From Robiginitomaculum sp. (GTDB taxonomy: Bacteria > Pseudomonadota > Alphaproteobacteria > Caulobacterales > Maricaulaceae), in contig NVXK01000004.1 in the NCBI GenBank assembly GCA_002733905.1, forward strand, positions 105,418 through 169,417: 64,000 nucleotides of DNA. The letters are read 5' to 3'. This document shows positions 43,232-64,000 of this stretch, piece by piece. Within the stretch, counting starts at the first letter, position 1; each line of letters begins with the position of its first letter. The notes under the pieces were generated by a model, which made no database searches, had not been told where the DNA came from, and worked only from the letters and a program-made list of their open reading frames with translations. Position numbers and translations under genes: made by a program.

Positions 43232-43290
43232 ATATACAAGTCATAAAAGTATAAATGTTTTTAAGCGTATGAATTTGGGGAATGATAAGA

Positions 43291-48105: not shown

Positions 48106-49521
48106 TTATTTTATGGTCTTAATTGTAGAGGCGCGGTCTAAATATGAGTGTTCTGGATTACTCTGTAAGGGGAGTAGCGGTGTGACAGATACGCCGTTCA
48201 ATATCCCTTTATAGAGTGTGCCGTCAGCTTGCAAATACCCCATCCCATGTACATCGTGAATGACATAGGGCTTTCCATCCGAATGCCCCAATAGCATCAT
48301 AACATGGCCAGGAATGTAAATCAGATCACCAGGTTGGCCTTGTTTTAATCTGTCAATTTTGTCTTGGCGTAGAGCGTCTTTGTCATAGCGCGCATTGATG
48401 CCAATTTCGCTACGGCCTTGGTCACCAGAGTTTCGGGGGAGTTTTATCCCAAATGATTTGTAAACTTCGGAAACGAACCCTGTGCAATCACGGCCATTAA
48501 AGCGGTGTCCCCAACCATAACGCTCCCCTAGGAATTTGAATGATTGTTTGAGGATATTTTCTTGTGTAAAGGGTAAATAGCCTACATGCACATCGTCTTT
48601 GCGGGCAATCAGTGCGTGTTTAAAATCCAAACTTCCATCGTCATTGCGTATAGGCAGAAGTACCATATGGCTTAGATACGGATTTTGGCCATATAGGTTA
48701 TGTTGTAAACTCTCTGGGCGTGATAAAGGAATTTTTGTTCCCATATCCAACTGTAATTCCGAAACTTTGGCGACTTCAGGGTTGTAAACTGTCGAGACTT
48801 TATCACCCGTGATGATGAGGAATGTATCGGAATTTGCATATTTGAAAACCTGTTCACGTGAACCCATAGCAATGTCTTCGACGGGGGCCCAAGCAATATA
48901 ATTATAGGATTGAACAAGAACCCATTTCCCGTCGTTGCTTTCATGCAATACGGCAAGGGCGTCTCCGGGGAAAAGAACGCTTTCTTGAAAGCGCTCAATG
49001 TCACGGTCATCTGCATTTTCGCTAAATAACAAATCAGACGTGGGGTAGGTACGAATGGAGGTACGCCGTACTGTCAAAGCAAATTTGACGGGGTTGGTGG
49101 GGTGAATGGCGTCCAAATTTAATGCGTCTTCGTAACGTGCAAAATCAATGTCGGTTACAGGTGTGCCATCTGTGAAAATACGGGGAAATTTCGGGACGTT
49201 ACTGATAGAGCGTATGCGCGATATGAGTTCGTCTTTTGAGAGCGTGCTTGGTTGGGATTCAATGTCATATAATGATGGGTCTTGCGCCGTGTTGGTTTCG
49301 TTGAACGTTTGGATGTCCTGTGCACTCATGATCACATTTCGTATAGTGAGCTTGTCAATCCAATAATCTGCTGACAGATGTTTTTCAGAGACGCCAATGA
49401 CGTCTGACACAAAGCTATCTTCAAAACCTAAATCACTTGTTTGGGGGTGATGGGAAGAGGGCGCACATGACGTCATTAGCATAGCCATAGTCCCGCACAG
49501 AAAACCGATTTTTATGTTCAT
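48106..49521 (-). CDS. SH3-domain NlpC/P60 (C40) peptidase, YkfC-like lipoprotein
   Basis: The product of about 471 residues has a lipoprotein signal (IGFLCGTMAMLMTSC), an NLPC_P60 N-terminal/SH3b region (FALTVRRTSIRTYPTSDLLFSENADDRDIERFQESVLFPGDALAVLHESNDGKWVLVQSYNYIAWAPVEDIAM) and a C-terminal NlpC/P60 domain with catalytic Cys in RDCTGFVSEVYKSFGIKLPRNS and His in PGHVMMLLGHSDGKPYVIHDVHG. The architecture is that of gamma-D-glutamyl-L-diamino acid endopeptidases. I use the ATG at 49521, which follows GAGG; another ATG (49533) overlaps the previous stop as ATGA, so coupling is likely. The track start is too early. Confidence 0.9.
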   Translation of the reverse strand: MNIKIGFLCGTMAMLMTSCAPSSHHPQTSDLGFEDSFVSDVIGVSEKHLSADYWIDKLTIRNVIMSAQDIQTFNETNTAQDPSLYDIESQPSTLSKDELISRIRSISNVPKFPRIFTDGTPVTDIDFARYEDALNLDAIHPTNPVKFALTVRRTSIRTYPTSDLLFSENADDRDIERFQESVLFPGDALAVLHESNDGKWVLVQSYNYIAWAPVEDIAMGSREQVFKYANSDTFLIITGDKVSTVYNPEVAKVSELQLDMGTKIPLSRPESLQHNLYGQNPYLSHMVLLPIRNDDGSLDFKHALIARKDDVHVGYLPFTQENILKQSFKFLGERYGWGHRFNGRDCTGFVSEVYKSFGIKLPRNSGDQGRSEIGINARYDKDALRQDKIDRLKQGQPGDLIYIPGHVMMLLGHSDGKPYVIHDVHGMGYLQADGTLYKGILNGVSVTPLLPLQSNPEHSYLDRASTIKTIK

Positions 49522-49529
49522 AATAGGCC

Positions 49530-50693
49530 TCATGATAATGATAGTAATATTTTGCCAATCAACAAACCGCCACCAGTACCAATAATATATCCCAACATCG
49601 CCATCAGTACGCCAATCGGGATGAGGGCGCGTGAATAGGCTGCCGCAAGAATGGGCGCGGACGCAACGCCGCCTATATTCGCCAGTGAAGCCACGCCACA
49701 TGAAAACAAATCAAGCTTGAAGAGTTTGGCCGCAATAAGCATAACGATCCCGTGGATCGTTAAAATCATGAAACCTGCCATAATAAACAAGGGTGCTTGA
49801 CCAAGCTCTGCAAAATTTGCGCGTGACGCTATAAGGGCGATAATTCCGTATAACAATATATTGCCGAGTTCACTTGATCCTGCCACGCTGCCAATGCGGG
49901 TCATGGCCGCGAGCGAGCCAAGTATTGTGACAATCAATACGGTCCATGTGGTTTTAGAAAAGAATTCGGTTACAGGTAAGAAATTTGCAAAGTATTGGGC
50001 GAGTGCAGAAACGCCGAGTGCGAGCCCAATCAAAAACAAAAGCGAAGATGTTGTGATGTTCGCAGGCGTTCCTTGCGAATCCGCCTCTAATTTTGCGCCG
50101 ATTTCATCAATAAGTTTAGTATTGCTCTTCGTCCATTTATTGAACTTCGGTGCCAGTGGAACGAATGAGAGAAGTAAAACCACCCATATGGCATAATCAA
50201 TAGAATCCATGAGTAGGGAATATCCCATGCTCGCATCGGGGATATTAAGTGCGCCTTGCACGGCAACCATATTGCCCGTTCCCCCCATCCAACTCCCACT
50301 TAGCGCTGCAAATGTCATCCAACTTCCTTCAGGAAGCCATGTTTTGAGCACTAAAAATGTAATGATAAACCCTAGGCCGATACTCAAACTGGCCGTAATG
50401 AAGGCAATGAGCATTTTGGGGCCAAGAGCCGCAATTTTTCGAATGTCGCCTTTGAGTAAAAGGAGAAAAATCATTGAGGGAAGTAGATTGCCCTTGAGGC
50501 TGCTATACGCTGTATTAACACTGTCCGTTTTTGTCCATGCCCCAAATGTGGAGAGAAGCATGATGACGAAATATAGAATAACAATACCGGGTATGATTTT
50601 GAAAATTCTATATTTTTGCGTAGATTCCAGCGCACTTAAGCCGCCGCAAATCGCAAATAAAATGGCAATATATGCAAATCCACTCGTAATCAT
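49530..50693 (-). CDS. DUF819 family membrane protein (YjcL-like)
   Basis: The 387-residue product has about ten hydrophobic helices and the DUF819 signature GSWMTFAALSGSWMGGTGNMVAVQGALNIPDASMGYSLLMDSIDYAIWVVLL and a closing ANIGGVASAPILAAAYSRALIPIGVLMAMLGYIIGTGGGLL. DUF819 transporters are uncharacterised but often stand next to dipeptide epimerases and dipeptidases. AAGG precedes the ATG. It lies between the dipeptidase and the NlpC/P60 gene, so it is a candidate importer of muropeptide-derived dipeptides. Confidence 0.87.
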   Translation of the reverse strand: MITSGFAYIAILFAICGGLSALESTQKYRIFKIIPGIVILYFVIMLLSTFGAWTKTDSVNTAYSSLKGNLLPSMIFLLLLKGDIRKIAALGPKMLIAFITASLSIGLGFIITFLVLKTWLPEGSWMTFAALSGSWMGGTGNMVAVQGALNIPDASMGYSLLMDSIDYAIWVVLLLSFVPLAPKFNKWTKSNTKLIDEIGAKLEADSQGTPANITTSSLLFLIGLALGVSALAQYFANFLPVTEFFSKTTWTVLIVTILGSLAAMTRIGSVAGSSELGNILLYGIIALIASRANFAELGQAPLFIMAGFMILTIHGIVMLIAAKLFKLDLFSCGVASLANIGGVASAPILAAAYSRALIPIGVLMAMLGYIIGTGGGLLIGKILLSLS

Positions 50694-50779: not shown

Positions 50780-52024
50780 TTATTTATGTGCGTAGGCTTG
50801 TGTTTTTTCTAAAACGCGCAGTATATTACCACCCCATATTTTCCCGATGTCTTCTTGGCTATAGCCGCGTTTTATGAGTTCATTTGTAACATTCATCGTT
50901 TCAGAGGCATCCATCCATCCCTCGATTTTACCGCCACCATCAAAGTCAGAAGAAATGCCGACATAGTCAATGCCAACAGTTTTAACCACATGGTCAATGT
51001 GGTGAACAAGGTCGGATACATTCGCTGCGGGGGATAATTTGTTAGCAGCTTCCATTTTCTTGTCATAGGCGTTTTCTGTCGCGCTATCCATTGATAAGAA
51101 TGCCATATCATCTAATAGCCCCATCTCGTCACGTACTTTCGCTTTAAAGGCCTCTTGTTCAGGTGTCAGGTTTTTAAGGTATGGGCCGTAAGCGACAATC
51201 TGGACGACACCACCCGTTTTTGCCAATGCATGTAATTGTTCATCATCGAGGTTTCGCACATTATCAGCGACACCTCGCGCACCAGAATGAGAGGCGATGA
51301 CAGGCACTTTAGACAGAGCCACAGCCTGCATCATTGTCTCTTTTCCTGCGTGTGATACATCAACCATGATACCGGCTTCATTCATTGCGATAATTAAGTT
51401 CTTTCCAAGTGGCGATAATCCGCCGTGTTGGCTTTGCGTTTCGCCTTTACTATAGCTTGGGTTAGAACTGTCACCGAATTGATTGTGGCCTACATGGGTG
51501 ATGCCCATATAGCGTACGCCGCGTTTAGCCCACATATCAACATCAGCAACAGAGTGACCAAGGGGGAAGGCGTTTTCTAACCCGATAAAAGCAATGCGTT
51601 TTCCTGATTTGTGTATGCGGCGCGCATCTTCAGCGGTCAAAGCCAACTCGATTTCATTACTATATTTCTCAGTGAGGCGTTTTATGGCGTGATAGCGTGT
51701 TTCGGCAATGTCTGCGGCCTTGGCAATGGCGTCTTTGGTATCGTCACCTTGTGGAGAAAATACAATGAGAAATGCGCCGTCCATGCCGCCAGATTTCATT
51801 TTTGCTAAATCGACACGGCTCTTTCCACTTGCCCATGGATCCATGTCTTCTGCTATCAAGTCTAGTTCCAAATCAATATGGCTATCTAGAACGAGTGTGG
51901 TTTCATGAATGGATTGCGGGGTAGGTGGCTGAGAAACGCTGGCGTCATTCTCTTGCGGGGCACAGGATTCGAGCGCCAATATAAGGGTAAGTATAGCGAC
52001 ACTTGTTTTGAATTTATGAGTATA
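50780..52024 (-). CDS. Membrane dipeptidase (M19 family), lipoprotein
   Basis: The product of about 414 residues starts at the ATG at 52024 (MYTHKFKTSVAILTLILALESC, lipoprotein signal), preceded by GGAA. Metal-binding motifs of the renal dipeptidase family are visible: LVLDSHIDLELDL, GLENAFPLG, RYMGITHVGHNQFGDS, GIMVDVSHAGKETM, PVIASHSGARGV and GISSDFDGGG. M19 enzymes cleave dipeptides, including those with D-amino acids. It follows the amidase by 50 bases and precedes DUF819. In this context the likely substrate is L-Ala-D-Glu or D-Ala-D-Ala. Confidence 0.93.
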   Translation of the reverse strand, partial: YTHKFKTSVAILTLILALESCAPQENDASVSQPPTPQSIHETTLVLDSHIDLELDLIAEDMDPWASGKSRVDLAKMKSGGMDGAFLIVFSPQGDDTKDAIAKAADIAETRYHAIKRLTEKYSNEIELALTAEDARRIHKSGKRIAFIGLENAFPLGHSVADVDMWAKRGVRYMGITHVGHNQFGDSSNPSYSKGETQSQHGGLSPLGKNLIIAMNEAGIMVDVSHAGKETMMQAVALSKVPVIASHSGARGVADNVRNLDDEQLHALAKTGGVVQIVAYGPYLKNLTPEQEAFKAKVRDEMGLLDDMAFLSMDSATENAYDKKMEAANKLSPAANVSDLVHHIDHVVKTVGIDYVGISSDFDGGGKIEGWMDASETMNVTNELIKRGYSQEDIGKIWGGNILRVLEKTQAYAHK

Positions 52025-52073
52025 CATAATATATTTCCTTAACGCGATATTTGATCTCTTGTTCAGATTGATA

Positions 52074-53129
52074 TTAGCCGCCAATTTTCAAAAGCTTATT
52101 GAGTTGGTTCGGGTGGTATTTTTCTATGAGCGCGAATAATATCGCCGTACTTTCGAGCGTGGGTTCGCCGTTCACGTTTAATGGTCTGAAATGCAGTTGA
52201 AACGCTCGTAAAACATTGCGAGTTTGCGCGTCTACTATGCCTGTTGGCTCAATTTTGTAACCGTAGGTGCCGAGTGCTCTTTGGATGTTAATAATCGGCA
52301 TGGGTTTGATGGTGAACTCTTCCCAATATTTCACAACTGTATCATTATCAAACCATGCACCAATGCCAAGCTGATAAAGGCGTTCCCATGGAAAGCGGGG
52401 GCCTGGGTCGATTTTACGGCTAGGGGCAATGTCTGAATGGCCAATAATATTGGTGGGTTTTATATGTGGGTGCCGCTCTAAAATTCCATCAAGTAGTTTT
52501 ATGAGGATCTCCATTTGGGATTCTGCAAAATCCGGGTAAAAACATAAGCGTGGCGGTTTGTTATGGGTGACACTTGACGTTTTGCAATATGTTTGATTCA
52601 CGACTTCTATGCCAATGGATTGATCGTTTAATCCACTTTTCCCTGCCCAATAACTGCGCCCTGCATGCCATGCACGCTCTGATTCTGGTACAAGTTCAAA
52701 TACTTTTAGTTTTTTGTGTGGGTATGATTTGTCACTTGGGTCAGGGACGAGGTAATGAGAGCTTACTGGCCGAGAAGATTTTTTTGTGAGAATGTCTACA
52801 GAGTCTTTAAAATTCGCAGAGGTGTGATGAATGACAATAATGCTGACGCGGCTATTATAGTTTACCGAAGGGAGTGTGTTTGTTTTTCCTATGTTGTTCA
52901 TCGTGCTACAGGCGGAAATACTCAGTAATCCGAGCATTAAAATACTATAGCGAGCTGAGTGACGGAGTATTGCGCTTGTAAAGCCTTTGGCCTGTGAAAT
53001 TTGGGCCAGTGAATCTTTGGCCAGTGAATCTTGGGCACTTGAAGCTTTGGCCCGTAAACCTTGGACTCTTGAAGATCGTTGGAACGCAGTAAATACTGTC
53101 ATACAAAAGCCTGAGTTGGTAAGATTCAT
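52074..53129 (-). CDS. N-acetylmuramoyl-L-alanine amidase, AmiD-like
   Basis: The enzyme cuts the bond between MurNAc and L-Ala. Zinc ligands are visible in IVIHHTSANF, IIGHSDIAPSRKIDPGPRFPW, and the substrate loop AWHAGRSYWAGKSGLNDQSIGIEVVN; a peptidoglycan-binding domain ends the protein (IQRALGTYGYKIEPTGIVDAQTRNVLRAFQLHF). The architecture (Amidase_2 plus PG_binding) is that of AmiD. A lipobox ILMLGLLSISAC lies unusually far in (about residue 74), after an Ala/Ser/Lys-rich segment encoded by tandem 15-bp repeats. The true start is unclear. It heads the amidase-dipeptidase-DUF819-NlpC-deacylase operon. Confidence 0.92.
   Translation of the reverse strand: MNLTNSGFCMTVFTAFQRSSRVQGLRAKASSAQDSLAKDSLAQISQAKGFTSAILRHSARYSILMLGLLSISACSTMNNIGKTNTLPSVNYNSRVSIIVIHHTSANFKDSVDILTKKSSRPVSSHYLVPDPSDKSYPHKKLKVFELVPESERAWHAGRSYWAGKSGLNDQSIGIEVVNQTYCKTSSVTHNKPPRLCFYPDFAESQMEILIKLLDGILERHPHIKPTNIIGHSDIAPSRKIDPGPRFPWERLYQLGIGAWFDNDTVVKYWEEFTIKPMPIINIQRALGTYGYKIEPTGIVDAQTRNVLRAFQLHFRPLNVNGEPTLESTAILFALIEKYHPNQLNKLLKIGG
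52985..53074. repeat. Six tandem 15-bp units inside the amidase N-terminus
   Basis: Six imperfect 15-bp units (consensus CTTTGGCCAGTGAAT on the plus strand) lie end to end over 90 bases. In the amidase frame they encode five-residue repeats of the AKDSL/AQISQ type. The repeat also creates a long ORF on the opposite strand, which I do not accept as a gene. Confidence 0.85.
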
Positions 53130-53250
53130 CGTTCAAATCATTTTATGTGTCGCGTTGTTTCGTGAGTTTGTTGATTCACACTCTTTCTGTCTAGCAAAAA
53201 CGTGAAATAAAACAAGTGTAAACACGTCCGATTTTTCAAAGAGGTAATGC

Positions 53251-53351
53251 ATTGGTATTAGTATTTTTCGTAATTGTGGCAAAAATGTCGCTAAATTGCG
53301 AAAAAAACTTCGAATTGGTATTTGACTTTGCAAATAGGTTGGAAGTATCGT
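53251..53351 (+). promoter_or_regulatory. ATTGGTAT motifs and promoter candidate before the TonB receptor
   Basis: ATTGGTAT occurs at 53251-53258 (followed by TAGTAT) and in GAATTGGTAT at 53312-53321. The second copy abuts TTGACT (53322), which is 18 bases from TATCGT (53346), a fair -35/-10 pair. The motif matches the half-site of the inverted repeat at 43212. It lies in the divergent gap between the amidase and the TonB receptor, so it may control both. Confidence 0.4.
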
Positions 53352-53434
53352 ATTTGTAATTCTGATGTACAGGCACGTCTTGCAGGCACGCCTTGTTGCA
53401 GATAATTATAAATAAAAAGAGGGTATACACACAA

Positions 53435-56404
53435 ATGGCAAATATTTCGCATAAATCGAGAAAAGCTTATCTTAAATACAATAAGATATTAACTGGCGCC
53501 GTTCTGGCCGCCAGTATGAGCGTAATAGCAGTTCCTGCTGTTGCTCAACAGGTAGGTGGTGTCACTGGCCATGTTGTTAATGACACAGGCGCGGCGATAT
53601 CTGGCGTAACAGTAGAAGCACGAAGTCCAGTTTTGCCTGGCGTAAGAACAGCAGTTTCTTCTGCAAATGGCCGTTATCAATTGCCATTACTCCCACCAGG
53701 TGAATACGAATTAACGTTTAAGAACCCTGACGGTACTGTTCTCAAACGTAATGCATTTGTTTTGTTACAACAAAAAATAAAAGTGAATGTAGCTTTTAAC
53801 AGCGCGATAGATGAGATTGTTGTTGTTGGTAGAAAAATGTATGTGGATTCAGGGAAAGCATCCTTGAAGAGCACAATCAACTCTGATGCTATCGAGGGTG
53901 TTCCTGTCGGGCAAGAATACCGTGATTTAATTAAGCTTATTCCTGGTGTTCAATATTCAGAAGACACAGTACGTGGGCCAAGTGCAGGCGGTAGTGGTCA
54001 GGATAATAATTATCAATTTGACGGCGTGGATGTATCTCTCCCTTTATTCGGTACGCTCTCAGCTGAACCATCAACGCATGATATTGATCAAGTTTCAGTC
54101 GTTCGCGGTGGCGCAACCGCTATTGGGTTTAACAGATCAGCTGGTTTTACTGTCAATACAATCAGTAAACGCGGGACGAATGAAGTTCACGGCGAAATTG
54201 GTTATAAATTGGAAACACCAAAGCTGACATCTGACCGTGATAGTGCGAGTTCAGTTGTGGATTTTGATGAAAATAAACGTTGGATTACAGCAAATCTTGG
54301 TGGCCCTATCATCAAAGATAAATTGTTTGCCTATGCATCTTATTACCGTCCAACGATTACGCGTGAAAACCGTAGTAATGCACTTGGTACGGTTCCTGAT
54401 TTTAAAAGCGAGCGTAATGAATATTTTGGCAAGCTAACATATGCGCCAGCTAGCAATCTTTTACTTGATGTGAGTTACCGTACATCTGACCGTACATTCC
54501 AAGGGTCCGGTGTTGGTGCATTTGACTCACCTACTTTAGCTACAGGCGGAAACGCTAGCCAAGATATTATTATTGCTGAAGGTTCGTGGATTATTGATGA
54601 TAAAAGTTCGTTTAATTTTAAATTTACTAACTTTAATAATAAGACATTCTCTGGCCCTGACACACTCTTTGATGTTCCTGTCACATTTGGCGGTGCGCTT
54701 CCTGTTGGGATGCTTGATCAGGTCGGACGTCTTTCTGTCCCAACTCTTCGTACTGGGGAAACAGCCTACAATGCCTTTGTTCAACCAATTATTGATCAAT
54801 ATGGGTTTTCAGAAAACGGTGTGCAAACTGGTGGCGGCACAGTAGGTGGCAACAACCAAATAAACAGACAGGACTTTACTCGTACTGCTTTTGAAGTCGG
54901 TTATGACCGCACCTTTATTACAGGTGATTCTTCTCATGATATTCATATTGGTTATCAATACCAAGAAATCGGTGAAGATCTTGAACGTACATCAAATGGC
55001 TTTGGTCGTATTTCAGTCATCGGCGGTCGTTCTTTCGCTGACGATGGTGTTACGCCAGTGTTTTATGAAGCACGTGTTTACCAAACAGGTATTGTCGACG
55101 GAAATGGCTCTACGATCGTTCCGCAGTCAATTGATACCTCATCAACACAACAAAGTTTTGAGATTAATGATACGTATGAAAATGGCGATTGGACATTTAA
55201 TCTAGGCCTATTGATTAGTAATGACGTATTGTACGGCCAAGGTTTACGTGAAAAATCTGGTACGATTTCTGGGTTCGAAACTGCGCCTGGTAATAAATAC
55301 AAAATGTATGAGGTTGATTGGAAAGACATGATCCAGCCGCGTTTTGGTGTGAATTGGGATTATTCAGATACAGCTGCTGTGTATGCAAATTTTGCACGAT
55401 ACACCCCGTCTACGTCATCTTTGTCACGTGCCGCGTCTTGGGACAGAAACCTTTCTCGTGAACTTAGATTGCGTTATGACGCGAACGGTAATTTTATTGA
55501 AAGTTCTGCTGTTAGATCATCTTCTGGTAAGTTTTTTGCAGACAATTTAAAACCACGCCAAATCAAAGAATATTTGGTCGGGTGGAATAAACAAGTGAAC
55601 GACCAATTGACCGTTCGTGCCCATGCGCGTCATCGTGCTGGTTCTAATTTCTGGGAAGATACGAACAATACGGCGCGTTTATTTGCGACTGCACCAGCTG
55701 AAATTCAAGCGCTAGGTCTATATATTCCAAATTTAGCCGATGTGCGTGCGGAAATCGGCGGATCTTCTTATGTGATTGCTCAGCTTGATACAGCCCATAC
55801 AGAGTATTATGAAGCTGGACTTGAGGCCGAATACTTTGGCGATAATTTCTTTATTTCCGGTTCATATACTTGGTCACGTTACACAGGTAATTTTGACCAA
55901 GACAATACGACAACGACTAATGATGGGAACCGCTTTATTGGGTCTTCTTTCATTGCCGATGGTATTGGTCGTCAGGTTTGGGATAATAGAGAAGGTACAT
56001 TACGTGGCGATAAACCTCATCAGTTGAAGGTTTTTGGCTATTATGAAATGCCTTGGAAGGGCCGTGTTGGCGCCTATGCAAATTACCAATCTGGTCAACC
56101 ATGGGAAGCTTGGGACGTCGAAGTTTATCGTGCCTTCACGGGAAGTAGCAGTGATACAAGCCGTTTTGCTGAGGCCGCTGGTTCTCGTAGAACGAAAGCG
56201 CATTTTCAGTTTGACTTGAATTACTCTCAAGAGTTTAAAGTTGTGAGTGGATATAATATCGAATTACGGGCTGAATTGTTCAATGTATTTAATAGCCAAA
56301 CTGGTTATAATATACAGAACAAGGTCAATAGCGCAGGTTTCGGTACCGCTCGTACTCTTTACAACCCACGTAGACTTCAATTGTCTGGAAAAGTTAAGTT
56401 CTAA
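53435..56404 (+). CDS. TonB-dependent receptor with carboxypeptidase-regulatory-like N-terminal domain
   Basis: A 989-residue outer-membrane receptor. After a signal peptide (LAASMSVIAVPAVAQQ) comes a CarboxypepD_reg-like beta domain (GGVTGHVVNDTGAAISGVTVEARSPVLPGVRTAVSSANGRYQLPLLPPGEYELTF), an IDEIVVVGRKM TonB-box-like segment, a plug (YRDLIKLIPGVQYSED ... GQDNNYQFDGVDVSLPLFGTL), then a large barrel ending RRLQLSGKVKF. The architecture is that of Oar/SusC-like receptors. The start at 53435 follows AAGAGGG. It has its own promoter region and terminator. Given the surrounding enzymes it could import muropeptides or amino sugars. Confidence 0.93.
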   Translation: MANISHKSRKAYLKYNKILTGAVLAASMSVIAVPAVAQQVGGVTGHVVNDTGAAISGVTVEARSPVLPGVRTAVSSANGRYQLPLLPPGEYELTFKNPDGTVLKRNAFVLLQQKIKVNVAFNSAIDEIVVVGRKMYVDSGKASLKSTINSDAIEGVPVGQEYRDLIKLIPGVQYSEDTVRGPSAGGSGQDNNYQFDGVDVSLPLFGTLSAEPSTHDIDQVSVVRGGATAIGFNRSAGFTVNTISKRGTNEVHGEIGYKLETPKLTSDRDSASSVVDFDENKRWITANLGGPIIKDKLFAYASYYRPTITRENRSNALGTVPDFKSERNEYFGKLTYAPASNLLLDVSYRTSDRTFQGSGVGAFDSPTLATGGNASQDIIIAEGSWIIDDKSSFNFKFTNFNNKTFSGPDTLFDVPVTFGGALPVGMLDQVGRLSVPTLRTGETAYNAFVQPIIDQYGFSENGVQTGGGTVGGNNQINRQDFTRTAFEVGYDRTFITGDSSHDIHIGYQYQEIGEDLERTSNGFGRISVIGGRSFADDGVTPVFYEARVYQTGIVDGNGSTIVPQSIDTSSTQQSFEINDTYENGDWTFNLGLLISNDVLYGQGLREKSGTISGFETAPGNKYKMYEVDWKDMIQPRFGVNWDYSDTAAVYANFARYTPSTSSLSRAASWDRNLSRELRLRYDANGNFIESSAVRSSSGKFFADNLKPRQIKEYLVGWNKQVNDQLTVRAHARHRAGSNFWEDTNNTARLFATAPAEIQALGLYIPNLADVRAEIGGSSYVIAQLDTAHTEYYEAGLEAEYFGDNFFISGSYTWSRYTGNFDQDNTTTTNDGNRFIGSSFIADGIGRQVWDNREGTLRGDKPHQLKVFGYYEMPWKGRVGAYANYQSGQPWEAWDVEVYRAFTGSSSDTSRFAEAAGSRRTKAHFQFDLNYSQEFKVVSGYNIELRAELFNVFNSQTGYNIQNKVNSAGFGTARTLYNPRRLQLSGKVKF

Positions 56405-56484: not shown

Positions 56485-58047
56485 TTATTGGGCTGTTTTC
56501 CCTAATTCAGCCCTTAGTGCATCAAGCTTATGGCCATATTTCTTCCAACGCCCAATCGAACCGCTATAGAGTGGTTGACGAACTTGGACTGAGCTTGCTG
56601 TTGCGGTAGGGGATGTGTTTTCGTGAAAACGCATACAACTTTCATCCCATTCAAGTTCACAGAACGATAAAAGCTTGCGAGTTTGGTTTTTTTGATCATG
56701 GATAATGTCTTCATAGGCGATTTCCATGAATCTGTTAGGCGGTATGTTCTTGCGCCAATGTGACATCAGCCCATCGAATTCATTGTAGAAAATCGCTGTA
56801 TCTTCTAAGTCGAAAGCGTAATCATGATTATTATTATGGGACGCGAAAAGCTGGCGGTAATTAGACAGGCAGCTATCCATCGCCCCGCGACGAAGCACGA
56901 TAATTCTGGCATTGGGGAGGGCGCGATGTATCAGGCCTGCATAAAGAAAGTTGAAGGGCATTTTGTCGATCAAATGATCCGCGCCTTGCATGAGGGTTTG
57001 TGTCGTGGCGATATAGTTTTTACCTATATCCGATAAATTAATTTGGTTTGTTTTTAGGAATGTATCGCAATCTAATTGCGTATCTATTGGTAGAGCAGAT
57101 GCTGCCTTTATCAGTTTGGAAAAAACCGTGAGTTCACCTGCTGAGTGAACGCGTGGGTGCGATGATAGAATTCGGTCTACAAGGGTTGTTCCTGTACGCG
57201 GTAATCCCACAATGAATATTGGCGCAGCATTTGAAAATTTATCTGCGTCACTATGCTTATCCAACATGTCCAGCGTTATGGTCGTTTTAGCAGCGTCGAA
57301 GACCTTTGCCATGGCTTGCCTGTTGTATTGGATTTGTTTTCGCTTGGTGCTTTTCGCCTTTTTTAGCCAATCAAAACTATCTTCATATTCGCCTAAGTCT
57401 TCAAGTGTTTTGGCAATCGTATGCCCAAGAAGCAAATGCGAATCTGTTGTGTCTACTGCCCCGTTAACAGTGAGCTCATTAAAAAGAGTTTTCAGTTTCT
57501 CGAGATGATTGTTACCTGATGTTTGTTTTTCGAGTGCCACCAATGAAAACCAAGCTAGGTAAAATTTGGGATTTATAGAGAGGGTGTTTGTATAGGCAGA
57601 TTTTGCTTTTGCAAAATCACCGATAAATTCTGCGGACGCACCAAGGTTGAAGTGAAACTTCGCCCATTTTGGATTTTTCTTTACTGCCTGTTCGAAAAAA
57701 GGGATGGCAAGGTTATGATGCTCTGTACGGCTATAGATAACACCAATCATGTCGGATAAAAGGGCGTCATTTGTGCCAATTGTTGCAGCTATGTCGGCTC
57801 GGGCCTTAGCCTGGTTGTGATCTCCTAATGCCATAAGTGTATTGGCGTGATATGTTTGGTAACGCACATTCTTTGGGGCGTGTTCAGTTGCTTTTGCAAA
57901 GAACTCTAATGCCTTGACCGTATTGCCTGTGTCTGAGGCGAGAACGCCTAACAGGAAAAAGGGAAGGGGGTTCGTCTCGTTCTGCCGCAAAGCTTCGATC
58001 GACTGTTTGTAAACCGTTTCATACGCTCTTGATCTGAGGAGCTTCAT
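56485..58047 (-). CDS. Tetratricopeptide repeat sulfotransferase family protein
   Basis: The product (about 520 residues from the ATG at 58047) has an N-terminal TPR region (FFLLGVLASDTGNTVKALEFFAKATEHAPKNVRYQTYHANTLMALGDHNQAKARADIAATIGTNDALLSDMIGVIYSRTEHHNLAIPFFEQAVKKNP) and a C-terminal sulfotransferase domain with the PAPS-binding loop PIFIVGLPRTGTTLVDRILSSHP, plus RALPNARIIVLRRGAMDSCLSNYRQLF. It follows the BadF-type kinase by 35 bases on the same strand. The track start at 58203 overlaps that gene and is unlikely. The acceptor of the sulfate group is not visible. Confidence 0.85.
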   Translation of the reverse strand: MKLLRSRAYETVYKQSIEALRQNETNPLPFFLLGVLASDTGNTVKALEFFAKATEHAPKNVRYQTYHANTLMALGDHNQAKARADIAATIGTNDALLSDMIGVIYSRTEHHNLAIPFFEQAVKKNPKWAKFHFNLGASAEFIGDFAKAKSAYTNTLSINPKFYLAWFSLVALEKQTSGNNHLEKLKTLFNELTVNGAVDTTDSHLLLGHTIAKTLEDLGEYEDSFDWLKKAKSTKRKQIQYNRQAMAKVFDAAKTTITLDMLDKHSDADKFSNAAPIFIVGLPRTGTTLVDRILSSHPRVHSAGELTVFSKLIKAASALPIDTQLDCDTFLKTNQINLSDIGKNYIATTQTLMQGADHLIDKMPFNFLYAGLIHRALPNARIIVLRRGAMDSCLSNYRQLFASHNNNHDYAFDLEDTAIFYNEFDGLMSHWRKNIPPNRFMEIAYEDIIHDQKNQTRKLLSFCELEWDESCMRFHENTSPTATASSVQVRQPLYSGSIGRWKKYGHKLDALRAELGKTAQ

Positions 58048-58081
58048 ACCTGTCGTCAGTGTTATGATGGTCAATCCCCGT

Positions 58082-58945
58082 TTATTGGTCAGTTTGTTGA
58101 CGTGCAAGCAGGAGTGCTCCTTCAAGAGCGTCACCATCAGGAGGAACGATTTCTGCGCGAATGTCGGGAGCAAGCCAAGGTTCAATACTTGCGGCCAGCC
58201 CACCTAATAAAGAACACCGTGGCACACCTGAATTATAAAGGCTGCGTACCATAGAATCGATATGGTTTGCTGAATGCCGTGTAATGAGACGCCCATGCCT
58301 GTCACCCGTTTCTGCGGCTTGTAGGACGATTGGGGCTAATGATGCGTAATCAGGCGCTGTCGCCTTGTCCATCCAACTCACTATTTCGTGGGTCTGGCAA
58401 TTAAATTTTTCGAAAAGGTGGCGGGTGAGATCCGAATGGCTTATGCGACCATCGGAAGTGCGTAATGTAATTCGGATTGCCTGCAATCCAATATAGGCGC
58501 CACTTCCTTCGTCAGAGATAGGGAAGCCATAGCCGCCAACCCGTACATCTTTACCTTTTATACGTCCAATCGCAATACTGCCTGTGCCGACGATAACAAT
58601 GCCGCCATCTTGGCCTGAATGTGCTCCTACATTGGCAATAAAAGCATCGTTGTAAATATGTGTAGAGTGAAACGGGAATGGTTGCGCCAGTAATTCTTCT
58701 TTTGCCCCTTCACGACCAATGCCGGCAATTCCCATGCTTGCTCGAATGGATGAAATATCTTGAGCCTCTAACTTGGCAGCCGTAATCGCTTGTTGATATG
58801 CGTCTTGGATAGCGGCAAAGACATTTGATATGCCTGTATTCGCATTGGCAGAACCAGATAAGCCCTGTCCAATAATGCGTCCCGACTTATCCGTAAGTCG
58901 CGCTCTACATTTCGTACCACCTGCATCAATTCCTAAAAAATACAT
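58082..58945 (-). CDS. BadF/BadG-type amino sugar kinase (N-acetylglucosamine / MurNAc kinase candidate)
   Basis: The 287-residue product has the ASKHA kinase fold of the BadF/BadG/BcrA/BcrD-type N-acetylglucosamine kinases: YFLGIDAGGTKCRARLTD (phosphate-1 loop), GLSGSANANTG, GIVIVGTGSIAIG and VGGYGFPISDEGSGAYIGLQAIR. Eukaryotic NAGK and bacterial MurK belong here. AGGG lies before the ATG. It is divergent from the SIS deaminase/nagA operon with candidate NagR half-sites in between. A MurQ gene is in the same block and requires MurNAc-6-phosphate, so this kinase may use MurNAc as well as GlcNAc; that is inference. Confidence 0.88.
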   Translation of the reverse strand: MYFLGIDAGGTKCRARLTDKSGRIIGQGLSGSANANTGISNVFAAIQDAYQQAITAAKLEAQDISSIRASMGIAGIGREGAKEELLAQPFPFHSTHIYNDAFIANVGAHSGQDGGIVIVGTGSIAIGRIKGKDVRVGGYGFPISDEGSGAYIGLQAIRITLRTSDGRISHSDLTRHLFEKFNCQTHEIVSWMDKATAPDYASLAPIVLQAAETGDRHGRLITRHSANHIDSMVRSLYNSGVPRCSLLGGLAASIEPWLAPDIRAEIVPPDGDALEGALLLARQQTDQ

Positions 58946-59119: not shown

Positions 59120-59138
59120 ATTGGTATTACATAGGTAT
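59120..59138. promoter_or_regulatory. ATTGGTAT and AGGTAT motifs before the deaminase-nagA operon
   Basis: ATTGGTATTACATAGGTAT: one full half-site and a second GGTAT in direct orientation, 56 bases before the deaminase start, in the divergent gap with the kinase. It matches the half-site at 43212 and 53251-53321, so it may be a site for the GntR/UTRA regulator. Confidence 0.4.
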
Positions 59139-59193
59139 TGTTTAATTTGTTGGTGGTGTTATATCCTTTGGTGTTAATATAAAGGAAGGCATA

Positions 59194-60234
59194 ATGAAGT
59201 CGCGAAGTGAGCCGCAGACCTTGATGTACGCAGAAGCGCGAGAGGCTCCTGATCGCGTTTGCAAACAATTGAAAGCTAATAAAGTACTGATTGAAGAACT
59301 GGCCGTGCGCTTGCGCAAAAACCCGCCAAACCTGATTGTGACATGTGCACGTGGGAGTTCTAATAATGTGGCGACTTATGCTAAATATCTAATTGAAACC
59401 CATATTGGTACGCCGGTTCTCTCATCTGCGCCTTCTGTAAGCTCGGTATATATGGCACCGCAAAAAATTAAGGGTGCGTTGTTTTTAGCGATTTCTCAAT
59501 CAGGTCAAAGTCCAGACCTCCTTATGACCGCGCGTGCAGCTAAAGAGAGCGGCGCCTTTATCGTTTCTATTGTGAATGACAGTACGTCGCCTCTAGCGAA
59601 TATGTCGGATTTTGTGATTCCTATTCATGCTGGTGCAGAAAAAAGTGTTGCTGCAACCAAGACCTTTATTTGCTCTCTGAGTGCGGTCATACATTTGGTC
59701 GCCGTGTGGAAGCAGAATGATGCTTTGATGGCAGGCCTTGAAAACATGCCTTCATTACTTGAATCTGCGTGTGAGCTGGATTGGCCTTCGGGTTTGGAGA
59801 AATTGATACCTGTTCATAACCTTTTTGTTGTTAGCCGTGGTTTAGGGCTTGGTATTGCACAAGAAGCAGCATTAAAGCTGAAAGAAACCTGTGGAATTCA
59901 TGCAGAGGCCTTTAGTGCGGCTGAAGTCAAACATGGGCCTATGACGATCGTGCAAAAGGGAAGCCCTGTGTTCATGTATTCTCCACAAGATCAAACACAA
60001 GAGAGCATGAATGATGTTGTCTCAGATTTTTTATCAAGGGGGGCGCAAGTGCTCTCGGCTGGTCACTCTTATGATCAGGCACTTAATCTCGACACCGCAT
60101 TTTGCCCCTTCAAAGAATTGCGGCCACTTTTATTTATCCAGTCTTTTTATATTTTCGTTAATGCGCTTTCCGTATTACGCGGTTATGATCCCGATAGGCC
60201 ACCCTATTTAAGTAAGGTAACGGAGACCGTATAA
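59194..60234 (+). CDS. SIS-domain glucosamine-6-phosphate deaminase (NagB-II type)
   Basis: The 346-residue protein resembles the isomerase half of GlmS without the glutaminase half. SIS motifs are visible: VTCARGSSNNVATYAKYLIE, LAISQSGQSPDLLMTARAAKESGAFIVSIVN, SVAATKTF and a C-terminal FSAAEVKHGPMTI. Such proteins (NagB-II) deaminate glucosamine-6-phosphate to fructose-6-phosphate and ammonia. GGAAGG precedes the ATG. The stop codon overlaps the nagA start by one base (TAATG), so they form an operon. Confidence 0.9.
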   Translation: MKSRSEPQTLMYAEAREAPDRVCKQLKANKVLIEELAVRLRKNPPNLIVTCARGSSNNVATYAKYLIETHIGTPVLSSAPSVSSVYMAPQKIKGALFLAISQSGQSPDLLMTARAAKESGAFIVSIVNDSTSPLANMSDFVIPIHAGAEKSVAATKTFICSLSAVIHLVAVWKQNDALMAGLENMPSLLESACELDWPSGLEKLIPVHNLFVVSRGLGLGIAQEAALKLKETCGIHAEAFSAAEVKHGPMTIVQKGSPVFMYSPQDQTQESMNDVVSDFLSRGAQVLSAGHSYDQALNLDTAFCPFKELRPLLFIQSFYIFVNALSVLRGYDPDRPPYLSKVTETV

Positions 60235-61373
60235 TGCAAGCTCTTGTCAACGCACGTGTCTTAACGCCTAAGGGGTATAAAGATAAGCAAAGTGTCGTGT
60301 TTAAAGACGGTGTAATTGTTGCTGTATGCGATGATGAAGTGCGTTCTGCAAATGCCACGATCCTACAAGACCTTGGTGGGGGAGAATTAATTCCCGGCTT
60401 TGTTGATGTACAGGTAAACGGTGGCGGCGGTGTTTTGTTTAATGACTACCCTACTGTCGAGGGAATAAAAACCATTGGGGAAGCGCACCGAAAATTCGGC
60501 ACGACTGGGTTTTTTCCTACTTTAATTAGTGATGATTTGGATGTTATGGCGCGTGCAATCGAGGCGGTTGATATGGCCATTCAGCAAGGCGTACCCGGTG
60601 TTCTTGGAATCCATTTGGAAGGTCCATTCTTGAATGTAGAAAAAAAAGGGGTGCATGATCCGTCAAAAATTAAAACAATTGGCGCAAATGAATTAGCGCT
60701 AATGTCTAGTCTTAAAGCTGGGAAAACGATCATTACGCTCGCGCCAGAAAAAACAACGCCAGATATTATCAGTGCTTTGCATGCACGAGGTATTATTGTT
60801 TGCGCGGGTCATACGCAGGCAAGTTATGACGAAACGATGATTGCAATGGATGCTGGTTTGACTGGATTTACGCATTTGTTTAATGCGATGCGGGCAATGG
60901 AAAGTCGGCGACCGGGTATTATTGCGGCTGCATTAGAGGACAAGCGTGGTTGGTGTGGTATTATTGCAGATGGCCATCATGTACACTGGGCAATGTTACG
61001 TTTAGCTCTACGGGCAAAAGTCGGAGACCAAGTTTTTCTTGTCACAGATGCCATGCCAAGTGTTGGGGCCATGCAAAAGGAATTTTCTATCGGTGGGGAC
61101 GCTATTATTGTGAATGATGGAAAATGCATGACTGTTGATGGTCGACTTGCAGGGTCAGATTTGGATATGATCGGCGCTGTATTGAATGCTGTTGACCATT
61201 TGAACGTCGATTTCCCTCAAGCTGTACGCATGGCCAGTATCTTGCCCGCCCGATTTGTTAATATGCAAGATAGGTTAGGGGAGATACGCGTGGGGCTTCA
61301 GGCCGATCTCATACTTCTTTCTGTAGACCAGAAGGTTGAGAAAACATGGATTAAGGGGCAGGCTATAAGCTAG
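60234..61373 (+). CDS. nagA: N-acetylglucosamine-6-phosphate deacetylase
   Basis: NagA deacetylates GlcNAc-6-P to GlcN-6-P. Motifs are clear: GGGELIPGFVDVQVNGGGGVLFND, GTTGFFPTLISDD, GVLGIHLEGPFLNVEKKGVHDP (catalytic metal-site Glu), AGHTQASYDETM, GFTHLFNAMRAMESRRPGI, GIIADGHHVHWAM, VTDAMPSVGA and the closing LQADLILLSVD. Length of 379 residues is normal. It overlaps the deaminase by one base and is followed convergently by the GntR gene with only 15 bases between stops. Confidence 0.96.
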   Translation: MQALVNARVLTPKGYKDKQSVVFKDGVIVAVCDDEVRSANATILQDLGGGELIPGFVDVQVNGGGGVLFNDYPTVEGIKTIGEAHRKFGTTGFFPTLISDDLDVMARAIEAVDMAIQQGVPGVLGIHLEGPFLNVEKKGVHDPSKIKTIGANELALMSSLKAGKTIITLAPEKTTPDIISALHARGIIVCAGHTQASYDETMIAMDAGLTGFTHLFNAMRAMESRRPGIIAAALEDKRGWCGIIADGHHVHWAMLRLALRAKVGDQVFLVTDAMPSVGAMQKEFSIGGDAIIVNDGKCMTVDGRLAGSDLDMIGAVLNAVDHLNVDFPQAVRMASILPARFVNMQDRLGEIRVGLQADLILLSVDQKVEKTWIKGQAIS

Positions 61374-61388
61374 AATGTAATTTGACGG

Positions 61389-62132
61389 TTAATCCAGCTC
61401 GTTGATATCTAGGTTCATAACAATGTCATAGCAATCACCGCGGTACGCTGATCTGGTAAGCTCCACGGGGGTGCCATCTTGCAGGGTTGATCGCCGTTCG
61501 ATACGCAGTATTTCGCTATTTACGTCAATGGCTAAAAGACCTGCTTCTGTCGGGTTTGCCAGTGAGGCACGGACTTTTTGTGTTCCTTTAACAGGATTGT
61601 TACCCTTTGTTTTTAGGGCCTCGTACAGAGATTGTGTTATCTCGGAAATGTCAGGCAATAATGATGCAGGAATGACGGCATGTTCAATCGCTAGAGGCTG
61701 GCCATCTGATAAGCGAACGCGCCCAAGCCGCACGACCTTGTCTGTTTGGCTAATGTTTAAAATTTCAGCTTCTTCCGTTGTTGGTGTACCGTAAGCTTTC
61801 ATAATCCAAATGGCCTGCGGGTTGTGACCATGGGTGTGCATATTGCTCGTGAAGCCGCGTAAACCAGACCCCAGATGGGAAATTGGAGGCAGTACAAATG
61901 TGCCAGACCCATGCTTACGCTGAACGATTTTGTCTTCTGAAAGAATGTTTAGGGCCTTACGAATAGTTACCCGTGAAGCGCCTGTCATTAGGCAAAGCTC
62001 ACGCTCGGAAGGTAGGGCCTCTCCCGCGTCGACATTGTTTTCAAAAATATAGGTGCGTATGTTTTTTGCAATTAGCATGTAATGAGGCATTGATGAAGTT
62101 TTATCCCTGCTAATCTTGTCTAACTTCATCAT
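61389..62132 (-). CDS. GntR/HutC family regulator with UTRA domain, NagR/NagQ type
   Basis: The 247-residue protein has an N-terminal GntR winged helix (YMLIAKNIRTYIFENNVDAGEALPSERELCLMTGASRVTIRKALNILSEDKIVQRKHGSGTFV) and a C-terminal UTRA ligand-binding domain (FTSNMHTHGHNPQAIWIMKAYGTPTTEEAEIL...KVVRLGRVRLSDGQPLAIEHAVIP...VELTRSAYRGDCYDIVMNL). NagR/DasR regulators of this type bind glucosamine-6-P or GlcNAc-6-P. AGGA precedes the ATG. Its candidate operator half-site ATTGGTAT lies before three operons of the block. Confidence 0.9.
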   Translation of the reverse strand: MMKLDKISRDKTSSMPHYMLIAKNIRTYIFENNVDAGEALPSERELCLMTGASRVTIRKALNILSEDKIVQRKHGSGTFVLPPISHLGSGLRGFTSNMHTHGHNPQAIWIMKAYGTPTTEEAEILNISQTDKVVRLGRVRLSDGQPLAIEHAVIPASLLPDISEITQSLYEALKTKGNNPVKGTQKVRASLANPTEAGLLAIDVNSEILRIERRSTLQDGTPVELTRSAYRGDCYDIVMNLDINELD

Positions 62133-62291: not shown

Positions 62292-63668
62292 TTAGTCAAT
62301 AACAACACCCGGGTTTAATATCTTACGCGGATCGAGAGTGTTTTTTAACAATTTCATCAAAGCAATTTCTTCGGCGCTTCTTGTTTGAGAAAGCCATTTT
62401 TTTTTCTCATGCCCAATGCCGTGTTCTGCTGATACCGAACCGTTATATGCTTGCAAAGGTTCATATATGGTGCAGTCAGAAAGATGCCGAGTGTTGTTCG
62501 CGCTCGACCCCGGTTGAACAAAAAAATGTAAGTTCCCGTCTCCAATATGGCCGAGGACATAACATTTGGATTGTGGCAAGAGCCGATTTAGTTGCTCTTG
62601 AACGTTTTTAACATAATCATCCATTGAGGAAATAGGGAGGCTCACATCATAGAGGTAGACAGGTTTTGGGTGAAGAATAGGCTCGAAATCGTCTCGGATA
62701 GCCCATAGCGCTTGCCGTTCATTTTCAGATTTTGGTAGTACAGCGTCTACAATTAACCCCTTTGTATATACGGTTTCGATAACTTCCATAAACCGTTCAT
62801 CATCACGTATTGGGTCATTACCATCGCATTCAAAAAGGACATAGAATGGATAGGTATTTTTAAAGGGCGCGCGGTGAGCCCCTGGCTGTGTAACTGCTGA
62901 AACATATTCTCCCCACATGACTTCATACGCAGAAAGATTTGTACCTATATTGGCTTTTAAATATGTGAGCAATTTTATTACGGATTGAAAGTCAGGAAGG
63001 GCAACAAGTGCTGTGTTCTTGGTGGTTGATAAAGGCATTAATTTAACTACGGCGCGGGTGATAATACCTAGTGTACCTTCCGAGCCAATGAATAATTGTT
63101 TTAAATCATAGCCTGCATTATCTTTTAGCACTTTATTTAATGAAGAAATGATAGTCCCATCGGGCAATACGGCCTCAAGGCCAAGTACCATGGATCGTGC
63201 CATGCCGTAACGCAGAACATTTACGCCGCCAGCATTGGTGGCTAAATTACCCCCAATTGTACAAGATCCACGGGCCCCAAGGTCAAGGGGGAGAAATAGG
63301 CCTTTTGCTTTTACCGTCGTTTGTACGGTTTCCAAAATAGCGCCAGCTTCTATCATGGCGGTACCTGTGACGGGGTCAATTTCAGTAATGGCGGTCATGC
63401 GCTCCAGAGAAATGATGATATCATTATCCGTACTGCGCGTGCCTTGAACACAGGTCGTATTCCCGCCGTGTACGATAACCGTTTGGTTGTGCTCATGGCA
63501 TAGTTTTAAAATTTTAGAAATTTGCAACGTCGTCGTTGGTCGTAAAAGTGCTTTGGCGTGTAGAGGGGAGCTGTCCCAATAGCTCACAGCCCTCATTGCG
63601 ATGTCCGCATGGGGGAGCATTACGTCTTCGCCAATGTTTTGCTTTAAAATATCAATAATGTTTGGCAT
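62292..63668 (-). CDS. FAD-binding oxidase, D-lactate dehydrogenase candidate
   Basis: The 458-residue enzyme has a PCMH FAD-binding domain (TVIVHGGNTTCVQGTRSTDNDIIISLERM, PLDLGARGSCTIGGNLATNAGGVNVLRYGMARSMVLGLEAVLPDGTII, and KLKGSEGTLGIITRAVVKL-type region IGSEGTLGIITR) and a C-terminal FAD-oxidase_C domain (YVLGHIGDGNLHFFV, GSVSAEHGIGHEKKKWL, DPRKILNPGVV). The family includes D-lactate dehydrogenase, glycolate oxidase GlcD and D-2-hydroxyglutarate dehydrogenase. Its place directly behind murQ, whose reaction releases D-lactate, favours D-lactate. GGGTGA precedes the ATG. Confidence 0.85.
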   Translation of the reverse strand: MPNIIDILKQNIGEDVMLPHADIAMRAVSYWDSSPLHAKALLRPTTTLQISKILKLCHEHNQTVIVHGGNTTCVQGTRSTDNDIIISLERMTAITEIDPVTGTAMIEAGAILETVQTTVKAKGLFLPLDLGARGSCTIGGNLATNAGGVNVLRYGMARSMVLGLEAVLPDGTIISSLNKVLKDNAGYDLKQLFIGSEGTLGIITRAVVKLMPLSTTKNTALVALPDFQSVIKLLTYLKANIGTNLSAYEVMWGEYVSAVTQPGAHRAPFKNTYPFYVLFECDGNDPIRDDERFMEVIETVYTKGLIVDAVLPKSENERQALWAIRDDFEPILHPKPVYLYDVSLPISSMDDYVKNVQEQLNRLLPQSKCYVLGHIGDGNLHFFVQPGSSANNTRHLSDCTIYEPLQAYNGSVSAEHGIGHEKKKWLSQTRSAEEIALMKLLKNTLDPRKILNPGVVID

Positions 63669-63713: not shown

Positions 63714-64000
63714 TTAATCAGTCTTGGCTTTAAGCAGGGTGAACGCGGCTCGTAGGTTGCCATTTGCTTGATTTATGATGCGTTCTGCGCTTTCGAGGTC
63801 ATGCCCTAATGCAATTAAGGTCGCTGTTTTTATGTTTTCATTTGCACTCTTGAGAGACGCGCGCGCTGTTGCGGTTGAGCACTGGGTAATGTCGCAAATC
63901 ATATTTAGGGCGCGGCCTTCCAGTTTTTTATTAGACACAACCATGTCAACCATAAAGCCTTTATAGACATGCCCGAGCCGTGTCATAATCGCGGTAGAGA
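63714..64000 (-). CDS. murQ: N-acetylmuramic acid 6-phosphate etherase, C-terminal part
   Basis: MurQ cleaves the ether of MurNAc-6-P to give GlcNAc-6-P and D-lactate. Only the last 95 residues are in the window; the gene continues beyond base 64000. The visible segment has the MurQ C-terminal pattern: STAIMTRLGHVYKGFMVDMVVSNKKLEGRALNMICDITQCSTATARASLKSANENIKTATLIALGHDLESAERIINQANGNLRAAF. The track ORF starts at an internal ATG and is a truncation. It lies 45 bases upstream of the dehydrogenase gene on the same strand, so they are likely one operon. Confidence 0.88.
   Translation of the reverse strand, partial: STAIMTRLGHVYKGFMVDMVVSNKKLEGRALNMICDITQCSTATARASLKSANENIKTATLIALGHDLESAERIINQANGNLRAAFTLLKAKTD

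Follow-up and report, generated by a model that had tools for sequence, protein, structure and literature searches.

A BadF/NAGK-type kinase of an alphaproteobacterial peptidoglycan-catabolism locus as a putative dual GlcNAc/MurNAc 6-kinase feeding MurQ

A locus that encodes the MurNAc-6-P etherase MurQ raises the question of which enzyme supplies it with MurNAc-6-P. In an alphaproteobacterium near Robiginitomaculum, a BadF/NAGK-type kinase gene lies about 5 kb from murQ in a peptidoglycan-catabolism locus of approximately 28 kb, which extends beyond the 64,000-nucleotide stretch of DNA analysed here (the window), and the first-pass annotation put the kinase forward as a possible source of MurNAc-6-P for MurQ. 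Judging from gene neighbourhood, phylogenetic distribution and predicted structure, this enzyme is probably a dual GlcNAc/MurNAc 6-kinase feeding MurQ.

Gene content of the kinase locus

The features of the locus that bear on this question are as follows:

43282–44862, plus strand: Na+/solute symporter (SSF; PF00474), candidate MurT-like MurNAc importer
48106–49701, minus strand: NlpC/P60 + SH3 endopeptidase, lipoprotein (PF00877, PF12913)
50780–52084, minus strand: M19 dipeptidase, lipoprotein (PF01244)
52074–53129, minus strand: AmpD-type lipoprotein amidase with a peptidoglycan-binding domain (PF01510, PF01471; lipobox)
53242–53259, plus strand: another tandem site of the NagQ-like type, located between the genes of the amidase and the TonB-dependent receptor (2 mismatches)
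53393–56404, plus strand: TonB-dependent-receptor-like outer-membrane protein, candidate for wall-fragment uptake (CarboxypepD_reg PF13620 only; a conserved neighbour in nearly all loci)
58082–58945, minus strand: BadF/NAGK-type amino-sugar kinase, putative dual GlcNAc/MurNAc 6-kinase, MurK-like (PF01869, NagK_SO3507, fold matches)
59122–59139, plus strand: tandem NagQ-like operator-like site TGGTATT-N4-AGGTATT, between the kinase gene and nagB-II (1 mismatch in 14 specified bases)
59194–60234, plus strand: nagB-II, SIS-type GlcN-6-P deaminase (NF046059, 359.7 bits, under the cut-off of 430; SIS domain PF01380)
60234–61373, plus strand: nagA, GlcNAc-6-P deacetylase (TIGR00221, 304.7 bits, cut-off 225.65)
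61389–62132, minus strand: GntR/UTRA regulator, NagQ-like by context (PF07702, PF00392; encoded at every murQ locus in the family)
62292–63668, minus strand: FAD-linked GlcD-type 2-hydroxyacid dehydrogenase, candidate D-lactate oxidiser (PF02913, PF01565)
63714–64000, minus strand: murQ, MurNAc-6-P etherase, C-terminal part (NF003915, TIGR00274)
L002:10257–11582, beyond the window, directly upstream of murQ: NamZ exo-N-acetylmuramidase, lipoprotein with a lipobox (PF07075, 271 bits; PF20732, 99 bits)

The kinase gene is divergent to nagB-II and nagA, and these two genes, followed by those of the GntR/UTRA regulator and the GlcD-type dehydrogenase, separate it from murQ. The window holds the last 94 codons of murQ; the complete gene (G000:C7:169131-170021) scores 357.8 bits against NF003915 (cut-off 168) and 293 bits against TIGR00274, just below 302. 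On the other side of the kinase gene, the TonB-receptor-like protein, the AmpD-type amidase, the M19 dipeptidase, a DUF819 membrane protein, the NlpC/P60 endopeptidase, an amidohydrolase, a beta-lactamase-fold protein and the SSF symporter are encoded in succession. Since several of the hydrolases bear lipobox or signal sequences, wall breakdown is probably extracytoplasmic. The DUF819 protein (49530-50693) is conserved across wall-catabolism loci and represents a possible transporter.

Related loci show the same elements in varying arrangements. Homologues of the SSF symporter are found next to the BadF gene in four genomes (G034, G088, G220, G248) and next to murQ in loci L178, L183 and L212. 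The GlcD-type dehydrogenase gene adjoins murQ in the window genome and in G108, G117, G115, G123 and G135, while a Dld-type D-lactate dehydrogenase (PF09330; NF008387, 772 bits in G088) is encoded near murQ in G088, as is its homologue in G034, and further homologues occur in sphingomonad loci; that murQ is accompanied by dehydrogenases of two distinct families agrees with D-lactate being a product of MurQ. Two NamZ genes are present in the G117 locus (L080), and in G117, G116 and G005 (L081, L086, L090) the kinase gene and nagA are kept, with nagB-II gone from between them.

Family, fold and sugar pocket of the kinase

The kinase gene is an intact open reading frame of 287 codons, and its product matches Pfam PF01869 over profile positions 1-271 of 271 (E=1.4e-37, 130.2 bits, cut-off 31.5), having thus passed the gathering cut-off as a member of the BadF/BadG/BcrA/BcrD ATPase family. 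Among the NCBIfam models it matches only NagK_SO3507 (NF046058), a model for GlcNAc kinases, where 253 bits fall short of the curated cut-off of 370 bits that confers equivalog status. The AlphaFold2 model built from 46 relatives has a mean pLDDT of 93.4, and 11 further intact homologues with 41–88% identity exist in the family, which together argue against a chance reading frame. The gene recognised in the first-pass annotation as a BadF/NAGK-type kinase is therefore real, intact and conserved; its product is an additional member of a known enzyme family, within a well-conserved gene cluster. In the draft genome G135, the kinase gene (L096:11342-12191) is split into two frames, as are other genes of that draft, possibly due to assembly errors. 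Downstream of the kinase gene on the same strand lies a TPR-sulfotransferase gene (56485-58203), the longest frame of which overlaps the kinase 3′ end; it is kept with the kinase in most relatives and has no evident role in wall catabolism.

By sequence, the closest solved proteins are NAGK from C. violaceum (1zc6), the S. tokodaii hexokinase and MurK from C. acetobutylicum (8zo3). Foldseek comparison of the model gave TM values of 0.90, 0.80-0.86 and 0.82 for these three, respectively, 0.75-0.79 for human NAGK and 0.68-0.74 for T. forsythia MurK.

The catalytic aspartate (D95 in T. forsythia) corresponds to Asp100 and is invariant in the 46 relatives. According to the alignment, the lactyl-facing positions are Gly137-Gly138-Tyr139; the corresponding residues are Gly-Gly-Trp in both human NAGK and C. 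acetobutylicum MurK. In T. forsythia MurK, S133-P134-L135 accommodate the lactyl group, and Glu or His is common in MurNAc-rejecting kinases (PMC10465942). Human NAGK phosphorylates MurNAc about equally to GlcNAc (PMC9477735), and C. acetobutylicum MurK is active on both sugars (PMC5790795). Because the Gly-Gly pair is common to these two MurNAc-phosphorylating enzymes, the pocket of the window kinase may be expected to be open to MurNAc. Such small residues are compatible with MurNAc use, not diagnostic of it.

Two neighbouring positions have been considered as specificity marks. The strict Tannerella-type signature of MurK, a Thr before the catalytic Asp (Thr94 in T. forsythia), is absent from the window kinase, which has Asn99, as does C. 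acetobutylicum MurK at the equivalent position. Six of the 12 family members, the G034 and G088 copies included, have Thr; as the residue varies within one and the same gene neighbourhood, it was rejected as a marker of specificity. Position 139 is Tyr in the window kinase and Trp in 1zc6 and in the MurQ-free nagKBA copy of G160, so that Tyr139 might mark the MurQ-linked clade, which is suggestive only, being confounded by ancestry. The pattern used in the contig scan itself contained this Tyr, and the order-level set alone is unbiased in this respect; in L202, a Trp-bearing kinase copy yet adjoins murQ.

Co-occurrence of the kinase with MurQ, NamZ and AnmK

Among 137 genomes of the family, BadF was found in 13, true MurQ in 13, NamZ in 16 and AnmK in 124. 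All 13 genomes with BadF also have NamZ (both, BadF only, NamZ only, neither: 13/0/3/121), and 12 of the 13 have MurQ (likewise 12/1/1/123), with a Fisher p of about 1e-15 for either pair, a statistic that ignores ancestry. The single genome in which BadF is not accompanied by MurQ is 87% complete and assembled in 470 contigs. MurQ is accompanied by NamZ in 13/13 cases, and in the same set AnmK, which occurs without MurQ in 113 genomes, shows no association with BadF or with MurQ. AnmK alone as an explanation of MurQ is weakened by its being nearly universal in the family and unassociated with MurQ.

The kinase–NamZ–MurQ module is patchy inside several genera, being gained or lost together, and the kinase tree requires linkage to NamZ to have arisen twice independently. 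In G034 and G088, BadF, MurQ and NamZ are present and AnmK gave no match; with assemblies 90–91% complete, its true absence from both is likely but not certain. In these two genomes, the BadF gene neighbours namZ and adjoins a co-oriented gene for a MurT-like SSF symporter. In G059 (100% complete), BadF is missing and namZ is reduced to a remnant, with murQ and anmK kept.

At the level of the order (398 genomes), where BadF and MurQ were searched for, 29 genomes have both, 12 BadF only and nine MurQ only. Nine of the 12 BadF-only genomes (family f3 or G244) probably carry other BadF classes. In several families of the order, BadF and murQ are immediate divergent neighbours, and in genus f4/g22 MurQ occurs without BadF in eight genomes. 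In these f4/g22 loci (L191-L194, L226-L229), the surroundings of the main murQ copy revealed neither NamZ nor NagA nor AnmK.

Among the 80 nearest homologues in GTDB, murQ lies within 10 kb of the kinase gene in 69 and within 1.5 kb in 52, and anmK is nearby in 53; in Rhizobiales, an operon combines BadF, MurQ, an SBP_bac_5 ABC importer and AnmK. By such gene context, the kinase clade is shown to serve wall-sugar use, and the Rhizobiales case would fit a GlcNAc kinase and a MurNAc kinase equally. In the tree, a clade of 74 rows, mostly MurQ/AnmK-linked (support 97/96), stands apart from a NagK-like group of six rows without linked murQ, which includes the G160 nagKBA copy; several rows have long branches, and deep placements are unsure. 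No publication dealing with this kinase clade of Alphaproteobacteria came up in a literature search, and a comparative study has taken MurQ together with the GlcNAc pathway as a predictor of MurNAc use (PMC5507952).

Supply of MurNAc-6-P and the probable role of the kinase

Enzymes of the NamZ family release free MurNAc. The substrate of AnmK is anhydro-MurNAc, which it converts to MurNAc-6-P, and the product of AmgK is MurNAc-1-P. The first-pass annotation saw no MurP, AnmK or AmgK, which is true of the window but not of the genome: AnmK is encoded on contig C2 and an AmgK–MurU pair on contig C9, the latter both under the NCBIfam cut-offs, yet adjacent and best matched to those models. The genome-wide search for alternatives covered ROK, PTS EIIC, BadF, PF01636 and AnmK; no ROK kinase, no PTS EIIC and no second BadF protein were found. 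PF01636 had five clear matches, namely the AmgK beside MurU and four other APH-type proteins, which were set aside as alternative MurNAc kinases. The implied premise that MurQ has no other source of MurNAc-6-P thus fails, since AnmK makes this compound from anhydro-MurNAc. The proposal that the kinase feeds MurQ survives nevertheless, because neither AnmK nor AmgK gives MurNAc-6-P from free MurNAc, and for this step the BadF kinase is the sole candidate found in these searches.

The pathway may be envisaged as follows. The secreted and lipoprotein hydrolases (AmpD-like amidase, NlpC/P60 endopeptidase, M19 dipeptidase and NamZ) would dismantle wall debris outside the cytoplasm, with free MurNAc released by NamZ and the sugar presumably imported by the SSF symporter. 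In the cytoplasm, the BadF/NAGK kinase would convert MurNAc to MurNAc-6-P and also GlcNAc to GlcNAc-6-P; cleavage of MurNAc-6-P by MurQ would give D-lactate and GlcNAc-6-P, the latter would be carried on to fructose-6-P by NagA and NagB-II, and the GlcD-type dehydrogenase would oxidise the D-lactate.

Several observations argue for such a dual 6-kinase: the product of namZ, beside murQ, should supply MurNAc in its free form, on which AnmK does not act; BadF co-occurs with NamZ and MurQ and shows no association with AnmK; G034 and G088 combine BadF, MurQ and NamZ with no AnmK match, the kinase there standing beside the symporter; and G059, which lacks BadF, has its namZ reduced. The murQ linkage of most of the nearest homologues, their separate clade, the Gly137-Gly138 pocket and a genome without a ROK kinase or PTS EIIC match point in the same direction. 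Against it stand the eight f4/g22 genomes, the incompleteness of the G034 and G088 assemblies, and Asn99 in place of the Tannerella Thr, though this Asn is shared with C. acetobutylicum MurK. A further objection, that the nearest named model and structure (NagK_SO3507; 1zc6) are GlcNAc kinases, leads to the main rival, in which the enzyme is a NagK acting on GlcNAc only, freed by glucosaminidases, while AnmK feeds MurQ and the MurNAc from NamZ is reused through AmgK–MurU. The encoded AnmK and AmgK–MurU, the divergence of the kinase gene to nagB-II and nagA, and the Rhizobiales loci, where BadF, MurQ and AnmK stand together with an ABC importer and a GlcNAc-only BadF would suffice, favour this explanation. 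We nonetheless consider it rather unlikely, given that AnmK is so often found without MurQ and MurQ always with NamZ in the family, that G034 and G088 gave no AnmK match, and that every characterised homologue found with this type of pocket accepts MurNAc (PMC9477735, PMC10465942, PMC5790795).

A strict MurNAc kinase with little activity on GlcNAc, like that of T. forsythia, would share the neighbourhood logic of murQ, symporter and namZ, and the Thr of the G034 and G088 copies would agree with it; it is very improbable for the window protein, with its Asn at this position, its identity to T. forsythia MurK of just 17-19% at a TM of 0.68-0.74, and a genome in which the ROK and PTS EIIC searches revealed no other GlcNAc kinase. 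As to a function outside wall amino-sugar phosphorylation, as a 2-hydroxyacyl-CoA dehydratase activator or a glucosamine kinase, PF01869 is broad and dehydratase activators do match the model weakly (TM about 0.5), but sugar-kinase homologues score far higher and amino-sugar enzymes are encoded in the locus, so that its probability is negligible.

The proposed dual 6-kinase resembles several known systems in part. With C. acetobutylicum MurK it shares the fold, the Asn before the catalytic Asp, the Gly-Gly pair and, as proposed here, dual substrate use, whereas identity is only 25%, that enzyme has Trp instead of Tyr at 139 and Asp instead of Gly at 77, and organism and gene context differ. 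The murTKQ system of T. forsythia likewise ties a BadF-type kinase with small residues at the lactyl positions to murQ and an SSF-type MurNAc transporter; it differs in Ser-Pro-Leu for Gly-Gly-Tyr and in Thr94, and the window locus in turn has NagA and NagB-II and no sign of MurNAc auxotrophy. The Shewanella-type NagK (SO3507) and C. violaceum NAGK are the best family and structure matches, and the nagK/nagB-II/nagA neighbourhood is common to them; the window kinase differs from the NagK types in its sub-threshold score and in belonging to the MurQ-linked clade with Tyr139. In B. subtilis, peptidoglycan catabolism proceeds through NamZ, NagZ, MurP and MurQ, MurNAc being phosphorylated by the PTS transporter MurP. 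Release of MurNAc by NamZ and the end at MurQ are alike in the two bacteria, but no PTS EIIC was found in the window genome, and a cytosolic kinase would be needed.

More tentatively, it is quite possible that a large alphaproteobacterial BadF clade, now matched to GlcNAc kinase models, comprises MurNAc-phosphorylating wall-sugar kinases serving MurQ, in some lineages as part of a transferable peptidoglycan-degrading module that also includes NamZ, a D-lactate dehydrogenase and a MurT-like symporter, and with Tyr for Trp as its mark in the lactyl pocket. If the dual-kinase reading is right, the missing step from free MurNAc to MurNAc-6-P would be filled in PTS-free, NamZ-using digesters of wall debris, and the likely annotation of many alphaproteobacterial "GlcNAc kinase" genes would be corrected. 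Such cells would also put MurNAc to two uses, recycling by AnmK, AmgK and MurU and catabolism by the BadF kinase and MurQ, while the alphaproteobacterial model Caulobacter crescentus has the recycling route only (AnmK, MupP, AmgK and MurU, no MurQ; PMC13046382).

Finally, the gene set might be controlled by the GntR regulator acting on tandem sites; NagQ motifs of Proteobacteria have been described as tandem repeats (PMC5343134). A window-wide search with the pattern TGGTATT-N4-TGGTATT found nine sites versus 8.06 expected, which is not above chance, and the sole convincing one, judged by its conserved position, is that between the kinase gene and nagB-II, with 0-1 mismatches at the equivalent position in nine relatives. 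The site between the amidase and receptor genes has 0-2 mismatches at the equivalent position in most relatives, and weaker tandem sites lie upstream of murQ; this suggests a single GntR regulon that may span the kinase, the receptor and murQ.
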